Positions 3,005-56,825 of a stretch of 64,000 nt of DNA are shown piece after piece (positions within the stretch are counted from its first letter, which is position 1; each line of letters starts with the position of its first letter). The position numbers were made by a program, and so were the translations under genes. Where the stretch lies: positions 1 to 64,000 of the forward strand of contig JABDAV010000002.1 in NCBI GenBank assembly GCA_013289015.1. Direction: 5' to 3'. The notes under the pieces are model-generated. The model worked only from the letters and a program-made list of their open reading frames with translations, did not search any database and was not told the origin of the DNA. Origin of the DNA: Bacteroidota bacterium. Lineage in GTDB: Bacteria; Bacteroidota; Bacteroidia; Chitinophagales; Chitinophagaceae.

Positions 3005-3832
3005 ATGTTTAGGAAGATTTTTTTGCTGTTGCTCTGCGCCGTAACTCTCAGTAACGCTTTTTCACAACAAACAAATACGTCTGCAAATGTACCCAGTGAA
3101 AAAGATAAAAAGAAGGAAGAGCGCAAACAACATATTGATGAGCTTATACAACGTGAGGAAGATGGCGCGCTGGTCTTCAACAAACAATTCCTGTTCGGAT
3201 TTAAACTCAATACCGATGGCTGGACAGCCTTATATGAACATGGCAGGTACAAAACCATTAATCTTACTAATACCTGGGGCATTGAATTTGGCGAGCGCAA
3301 AAGCCACAAGGAAGAAAAGATAACGCCCACCGATCTCTCCACCGGCTTTCCTGTAGGCAATCCCTTTGTTTACGGAAAACAAAACAATTTTTATTACCTC
3401 AACTTTACTATCGGCCAGCAAAGGCTTATTGGCGGAAAGGGCACAAAGAATGGCGTGGCTGTCTCTGCTATTTATAGCGGTGGTTTTTCGGCAGGCCTTT
3501 TAAAACCCTACTATGTAACGATATATGATCCCAATACCGACCAAACATATGATGTAAAATATCAAGGTCCTTCAGATAGTCTTTTTCTTACCTACCCTAT
3601 TTCCTCTGCAGGCTTAACAAAAGGCATAGGAGAAACCAAATTTGTTCCCGGCCTTGTTGCACGTCTTGGTTTGCGGTTTGACTACGGCCGCTACAATGAA
3701 CTGGTTTCTGCCATTGAAATTGGCATAAGCGGAGAATTTTATACGCAGGATATGCCGATAATGGTGAACACTCCTCCCAAAAAATTCTTCTATAACTCTT
3801 ACATCGCTATCGAATTTGGCGGGCGCAAGTAA
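3005..3832 (+). CDS. hypothetical secreted/outer-membrane-associated protein
   Basis: Signal peptide-like N-terminus, 275 aa intact ORF with beta-rich pattern. Confidence 0.7.
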   Translation: MFRKIFLLLLCAVTLSNAFSQQTNTSANVPSEKDKKKEERKQHIDELIQREEDGALVFNKQFLFGFKLNTDGWTALYEHGRYKTINLTNTWGIEFGERKSHKEEKITPTDLSTGFPVGNPFVYGKQNNFYYLNFTIGQQRLIGGKGTKNGVAVSAIYSGGFSAGLLKPYYVTIYDPNTDQTYDVKYQGPSDSLFLTYPISSAGLTKGIGETKFVPGLVARLGLRFDYGRYNELVSAIEIGISGEFYTQDMPIMVNTPPKKFFYNSYIAIEFGGRK

Positions 3833-3920
3833 TACGCTGTAATAAGTTATTTTTGCCTGATTTTTCTTTTGGAAAAAGTAAATGTCATTTGTCTTTAATA
3901 GAAAATAAGGCAATGTTGCA

Positions 3921-4094
3921 AGAATAGACTTCGTTCTTATAAGAATGGAGAAGAATATCACAAGAATGTGCGACATTCTGCAAGAATGAAAGAGAATATT
4001 ATGAGAATGAGCAATAATCTTATAAGAATGACTGGGAAACTTTGTAAGAATGGGAAACAATCTTATAAGAATAATTCAAAATATTAAAAGAATG
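3921..4094. repeat. Helically phased AGAAT(G) array (11 units, ~10.5/21 bp period)
   Basis: AGAAT at 3921, 3942, 3952, 3963, 3983, 3993, 4004, 4025, 4047, 4068, 4089; intervals 21,10,11,20,10,11,21,22,21,21. Confidence 0.9.
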
Positions 4095-4157
4095 AAGTCC
4101 GGAATAGGAATATTAAGTTTGAGTTGAGAATTTATGTGAAACTTTGAAACAGAAAAC

Positions 4158-5078
4158 ATGGAGCAAATCTGCATATCACAAACTACAGAAAGGCCTAAAA
4201 TAAAAAAGCCCGATTGGTTAAGGGTAAAATTACCTATCGGAGAAAGTTATAAACATGTTCGCAATCTTGTTGATACACATAAACTACACACCATTTGCGA
4301 GAGCGGCAATTGCCCGAATATGGGTGAATGCTGGGGTGCAGGTACGGCAACTTTTATGATACTTGGAAACATTTGCACCCGCAGTTGCGGTTTTTGCGCA
4401 GTAGCAACTGGTCGCCCTGAACCTATTGATTGGGATGAACCGCAACGTGTTGCTGAAGCCATCCATTTAATGAAGGTTAAACATGCTGTTATAACCAGCG
4501 TTGACCGTGATGAACTTAAAGACGGCGGCTCAACTATTTGGTATAATACTATAAAAGCAGTTAAAGCGCTTAATCCCGATACAACTCTTGAAACGCTCAT
4601 CCCCGATTTTAAAGGCGAACACGAAAATATTGCACAAATTGCCGAAGCGGCACCAGAAGTTATCAGTCACAATATGGAAACGGTTGAACGCTTAACAAGA
4701 CAGGTGCGCATACAGGCAAAATACCGTAGAAGCCTGGAAGTACTTCGTTATTTGAAAGAACTTGGTGTGCGCACAAAGACCGGCATTATGCTCGGCCTTG
4801 GCGAAACAAAGGAAGAAGTTATCCAAACCATGAATGATTTGGCTGCTGTTAATCTTGATGTACTTACACTCGGCCAATACCTTCAGCCAACTACTAAACA
4901 TTTAAGCGTTCAGCGCTTTGTACATCCCGATGAATTTGCGGAATACCGCGAGATCGGTTACTCCCTTGGATTTGATTATGTTGAAAGCGGCCCATTGGTG
5001 CGTTCTTCTTATCACAGCGAAAAGCATGTGTTCAAAGGCTATGGCCGAAACCAGTGGCTGAATGAAAAAAGCAATTAA
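4158..5078 (+). CDS. lipA: Lipoyl synthase
   Basis: [14 protein letters not shown] and radical [11 protein letters not shown] motifs. Confidence 0.97.
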
Positions 5079-56434: not shown

Positions 56435-56825
56435 AACTTTAATTAATATAAACCTTAAAAGAGCTTGTATTCACGAACCTGGTATAAGCTTTTTAGGACT
56501 AGACAGACCCTGTCTCCTTGCACTCTACTCCCTGTTTACTCCCAGTCTGCTCCATACCTGAAGGCTATTAACTGCGTTCCTCCTCGTTTTTGGTATGTAT
56601 AAATAAGGGAAAAAGGATAATCAAAGAATTAATGACCTTAGTTCAGAATATACAATTGTTTTCATTGAAACAGATACTGAGCTGATTATTTGTGAATTTA
56701 TTTCATCTAAACTTATCTATAGGTAAACAATTTTTATTGCTTTTTCCAAAAGTAAATCTTCCTTCCCAAACTTCCTTACCATCTCCCTCCTAAACTTTAT
56801 CTTTGCGCTCCTTTTTACGTGAGTT

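Follow-up and report, generated by a model that had tools for sequence, protein, structure and literature searches.

Arrays of the iteron or parC type are composed of short words which lie on one face of the helix, spaced at about 11 or 21-22 bp, and which are bound by protein side by side. They are located in replicons that contain the cognate Rep or Par gene. The array described here, in contrast, is chromosomal and lies in the probable leader of lipA, the gene for lipoyl synthase. No Rep or Par gene was identified beside it, its neighbours being lipA and a gene for a conserved protein to which Pfam gave no match.

Direct-repeat arrays of the heptamer TAACTGA have been described for Beggiatoaceae, Cyanobacteria and some Bacteroidetes (MacGregor 2015, PMC4679880). 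Like the lipA array, they are intergenic direct repeats of a short word, often found near genes and without a proven binder, and in some cases close relatives lack them in the corresponding gap. However, the heptamers form 7-bp tandem units of a single fixed word, whereas the lipA array has a 21-bp period with variable spacers and contains no 7-bp period (autocorrelation z of -2.0 at lag 7). The second system is BrickBuilt, a minisatellite or MITE of Porphyromonas gingivalis with a 23-bp unit (PMC4596501). This, too, is an intergenic tandem array in a Bacteroidetes genome, and its unit spans about two helical turns. BrickBuilt consists of spacerless tandem units, is dispersed in 19 copies and has inverted repeats as leader and tail, whereas the lipA array is single-copy with degenerate units; dispersed copies of its unit elsewhere in the genome were searched for and not found. 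These two were the nearest published relatives that we found, and the open-access literature searched gave no description of 21-bp arrays. The tandem repeats of Borgs can be likened to these arrays, since they evolve fast and originated independently at many places, while a helix-turn rule is not mentioned in the abstract of that work (PMC9879509). In a survey of structure-related repeats in prokaryotes, close direct repeats between genes were normal to slightly over-represented (PMC4060949).

The Array in the Gap Upstream of lipA

The window analysed is a stretch of 64,000 nucleotides from a genome of the Chitinophagaceae, near Parafilimonas. The first-pass annotation of this DNA had reported 11 AGAAT words locked to the helical repeat in the 325-bp gap between a secreted-protein gene (3005-3832) and lipA (4158-5078). 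The gap was confirmed, and all 11 starts are exact, with intervals of 21, 10, 11, 20, 10, 11, 21, 22, 21 and 21 bp, or 168 bp in total. The degenerate AGAAA and the palindromes that had been described are likewise present. The features of the locus are the following:

3005-3832, plus strand: upstream gene, coding for a 275-aa product with a signal-peptide-like start; neighbour of lipA conserved in the family
3848-3855, plus strand: TATTTTTG, TAnnTTTG promoter motif of the -7 type, right after the stop of the upstream gene
3900-4094, plus strand: array of about nine 21-bp steps (20-22) with the AAGAATG word and 14-nt variable spacers; the first copy, at 3900, is the degenerate AGAAA
3920-3926, plus strand: AAGAATA word
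3941-3947, plus strand: AAGAATG word, overlapping the palindrome TCTTATAAGA at 3935-3944
3951-3956, plus strand: AAGAAT half-step word, 10 bp past the preceding word
3962-3968, plus strand: AAGAATG word
3974-3988, unstranded: palindrome CATTCTgcaAGAATG, with CATTCT and AGAATG on the two sides of gca; includes the word at 3982-3988, reached by a 20-bp step
3992-3997, plus strand: GAGAAT half-step word
4003-4009, plus strand: GAGAATG word
4018-4030, plus strand: palindrome TCTTATAAGA (4018-4027) and AAGAATG word (4024-4030)
4046-4052, plus strand: AAGAATG word, the phase being restored by a 22-bp step
4061-4073, plus strand: palindrome TCTTATAAGA (4061-4070) and AAGAATA word (4067-4073)
4088-4094, plus strand: final in-phase AAGAATG word
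4114-4121, plus strand: TAAGTTTG, second match to TAnnTTTG, just past the array; putative second lipA promoter
4158-5078, plus strand: lipA, lipoyl synthase with Radical SAM and LIAS_N domains

On the plus strand, the gap contains 12 AGAAT words in all. The twelfth, at 4127, is located 38 bp past the eleventh and is off phase, and a single AGAAT is present on the minus strand at 3975-3979; these two had not been reported before. The phase coherence of all 12 words was R=0.847 at 10.4 bp, and that of the nine AAGAAT words was R=0.969 at 10.5 bp. The phase withstood comparison with shuffled DNA: in none of 1000 dinucleotide shuffles of the gap did any 5-mer or 6-mer equal the count or the coherence, and when 12 words were placed at random, 1 of 20000 trials was as coherent. 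By TRF, the array was recognised merely as a weak 21-bp repeat with 62% matches. A 42-bp higher-order alternation, suspected by eye, was not significant for the lipA array (30 of 126 labelings).

It had been proposed that only the word and its phase are kept, which agrees with the identities across the nine word-aligned units of 0.91 for the words and 0.44 for the 14-nt spacers, a block-conservation result somewhat favoured by the registration of the alignment on the word. Uniform decay of a tandem repeat, simulated as a star and as successive duplication, gave this block conservation in 0 of 1000 simulations. The same annotation had named selection for a codon frame as an alternative. A decayed heptapeptide coding repeat, in which seven codons would account for the 21 nt, is very improbable. 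Open heptads were identified in some arrays of the family (for example KNDIVLT in G232 and KN[ADEG]F in G181), but stops are present in all six frames of the lipA array, the conserved columns have no 3-bp rhythm, and AAGAAT is exact in eight of the nine copies with zero synonymous changes. In addition, the 20-bp and 22-bp steps shift the frame and cancel each other, so that the phase is kept and the reading frame is not.

Promoter Context and the lipA Leader

TAnnTTTG is the general -7 promoter element of Bacteroidetes. It was identified in the gap of 75 of the 98 lipA regions of relatives, compared to 5.7 expected from shuffles, and mostly straight behind the stop codon that ends the upstream gene. 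A scan for sigma-70 promoters and terminators revealed nothing beyond chance. Since the conserved motif precedes the array, the array is, judged from the sequence, probably part of the transcribed lipA leader. The earlier placement upstream of lipA has to be refined accordingly. With the second match to TAnnTTTG at 4114, there is room for a transcription start downstream of the array.

An RNA element in this leader, with repeated AAGAAUG motifs or small hairpins that bind a regulator or slow translation, would be consistent with the position of the array behind the conserved promoter motif and with the small hairpins possible in some units. However, folding of the leader was no better than that of shuffles (z=-1.3), Rfam gave no match to the leader or the array at E up to 1, and a 10.5-bp phase with half-steps belongs to duplex DNA, not to RNA. 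Such an element is thus improbable.

Occurrence of the Array and Its Word in Relatives

The pair of the upstream gene and lipA is conserved in relatives. The array is absent from this gap in all relatives compared, so lipA can do without it. None of seven congeners contains a comparable triplet array of AAGAAT anywhere in the genome, and within the same genome near-exact AAGAATG pairs at 21 bp are clustered at the lipA locus alone. The absence of similar arrays from relatives had been named as an observation that would count against the phased array; there are none at lipA, but arrays of this kind are present elsewhere in the genomes of relatives, mostly with other words.

Among 299 genomes of the family, 21-bp AAGAATG arrays were identified in 8, while five control words with matching composition gave 21-bp arrays in 4, 5, 5, 0 and 2 genomes. 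With these control counts, and with half of the AAGAATG arrays from a single genus, a privileged role of AAGAATG throughout the family was dropped as unconvincing. When no gap length between the words was prescribed, a 21-bp period was seen in 14 of about 21 AAGAATG triplet arrays in the 299 genomes, and CATGTTT arrays, irregular ones aside, had periods of 7, 10, 11, 18, 21 and 22 bp; for both words independent arrays were counted by contig, and those from other genomes may in part be coding, for example the ones with KNDIVLT heptads. Plasmid homologues were considered and dropped. A scan of viral contigs gave more than 100 matches, nearly all with exact 21+21 spacing, and was excluded from the conclusions. 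The genus g71 (G279, G232, G078 and G167) contains unusually many 21-bp arrays with several words, among them AAGAATG and AGATGAA.

An independent array of another genus, G181:C57, has all 11 of its AAGAATG words intact at exact 21-bp steps with spacers 0.54 identical, a block conservation reached in 0 of 20000 simulations. This is suggestive of a common binder for G181:C57 and the lipA array, and is not a proof of one.

A Recurrent Class of Arrays with a Two-Turn Unit

When 464 kb of this genome were scanned for helix-phased words of any kind, the lipA array ranked first and the CTTTTT array L135 second. A word-free autocorrelation survey of non-coding DNA revealed strong periods almost exclusively of 7, 11, 21, 22 and 42 bp. 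About ten comparable 21- or 42-bp arrays were found between genes in the same genus, with nearly all words different and about 8 to 22 units each, several of them beginning right at the stop codon of the gene ahead of them. The class is defined by a 21-bp (20-22) or 42-bp period, at least 8 units and a non-coding location, all of which the lipA array has. Its siblings are L166, L159, L135, L273 and L274 in the same genome (G000) and L177 (G005), L249 and L250 (G004) and L253 (G001) in congeners.

The units are near-identical in the centres of L177, L166 and L274 and far diverged in the lipA array and L159, and some siblings have a homogenised centre and decayed edges. Slippage had at first been rejected as an origin of the array. 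This is doubtful, because the sibling arrays grade from near-identical to highly diverged units, which makes an origin by tandem duplication likely. The word is better kept than the spacer in the lipA array, L249, L250 and G181:C57; L166, L177 and L273 have no such preference and fit plain uniform decay, as L274 largely does. That the lipA array belongs to a recurrent class of two-turn arrays and is of tandem origin is, taken together, probable. Most siblings have other words, so a single protein cannot explain the class.

L135:13965-14153 (G000) is located between the gene for a metallo-beta-lactamase-fold protein, taken as the ligase-associated exonuclease, and that for an ATP-dependent DNA ligase. 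The orthologous exonuclease-ligase gap of G004 also contains a 21-bp array, L250:12508-12738, with a word unrelated to that of L135. From the density of arrays, the probability of finding arrays in the same ligase gap of both genomes by chance was estimated at roughly a few percent, for this one case. The longest array found, L274:4684-5150, consists of about 22 units of 21 bp with a 42-bp alternation, one half of which carries CRP-like TGTGA-N7-TCACA palindromes.

The first-pass annotation had also offered curvature as a reason for the phasing. For six of the 11 arrays in the class, the predicted curvature is above the 99th percentile (1.42) for non-coding windows, a larger share than is usual for random 21-bp arrays (9 to 24% exceed it). 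However, the lipA array was predicted to be straight, with a ratio of contour to end-to-end distance of 1.13 and with 78 of 300 shuffles equally curved, so that an intrinsically curved DNA element is hardly credible for this locus. By the wedge model used for these predictions, curvature is therefore not the function that the class has in common. For L135, a very strong curvature of 3.63 was predicted.

Periods and the Helical Repeat

Among non-coding clusters with a period of at least 12 bp, 18 of 27 have a period that differs from a multiple of 10.5 bp by at most 1 bp (null 0.204, p=2.6e-7). The same is true of 10 of the 13 strong clusters and, among the eight clusters whose period is not a multiple of three, of seven (p=4e-4). 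No such preference was seen for arrays inside genes (19 of 127, p=0.16). Periods of 18 and 24 bp are common in genes and absent from non-coding DNA, and a comparison of 21 bp with 12, 15, 18 and 24 bp between non-coding DNA and genes gave a Fisher p=8e-4, which is a further point against a coding origin of the lipA array. The analysis of periods was post hoc, on a sampled family and with crude gene calls. If the rule is true, double-helix geometry, and not slippage statistics alone, governs the intergenic repeats of the whole family. This would imply either that many phased arrays for protein binding have gone unrecognised or that there is a duplication mechanism which measures helical turns. 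An intergenic element present throughout the Chitinophagaceae, with a period locked to whole helical turns, a word free to differ between loci and species, and maintenance for phased sites of proteins or of a nucleoid-like filament, is a speculative and rather doubtful extension.

Proposed Maintenance and Possible Role of the lipA Array

As the best explanation overall, we tentatively propose that the lipA array is an old, decayed tandem array of a two-turn unit in which phased protein sites preserve the word and its phase. The array would have been born by tandem duplication of a 21-bp unit, and its spacers would have decayed later, while word and phase would have been retained by a putative DNA-binding protein. 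This protein would occupy adjacent AAGAATG sites in a row along one face of the helix, an arrangement which had been anticipated and is possible at the lipA array. Phased binding is preferred because word and phase outlive the spacers, and maintenance in this way could be the case, at not quite an even chance.

The main rival is a functionless minisatellite. In this view, a mutational rule biases tandem duplication in the family towards one-, two- or four-turn units, and the lipA array is simply decaying. It is a serious possibility, if a doubtful one. The siblings span near-perfect to diverged arrays, mostly each with its own word, some with homogenised centres and decayed edges, and uniform decay fits several of them; the presence at lipA is lineage-specific, and the periods are quantised regardless of the word. 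What it accounts for poorly is the word retained despite far-diverged spacers in the lipA array, G181:C57, L249 and L250. Moreover, no duplication mechanism with a preference for 21 bp is known to us.

If phased binding maintains the array, a filament or cluster in the lipA leader would most likely be a roadblock or a local silencer of the conserved upstream promoter; a roadblock role as such is considered unlikely.

Other Repeats

Arrays of 7-bp words of the AGTTGTG/CAACTGA type, which form long imperfect hairpins, were noticed at L035 upstream of lipA, at L160:12753 and at L157:6639, and are common in the intergenic DNA of the family. In the window, the non-coding gap at 56435-56825 has a weak 11-bp periodicity. 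A dispersed element occurs in the same genome at L256:16280-16448, L163:8137, L131:19218, L168:10383, L132:6495, L257:6751 and L273:2251, with the conserved flanks TTTAGTATGCGATAGTAC and GAAGCAGAAT around a central 11-bp array of TATAAGGTTAC, and in some copies a second word, GAGTTGACAGG, forms a short 11-bp run as well. It looks like a family of the MITE type with one-turn repeats.
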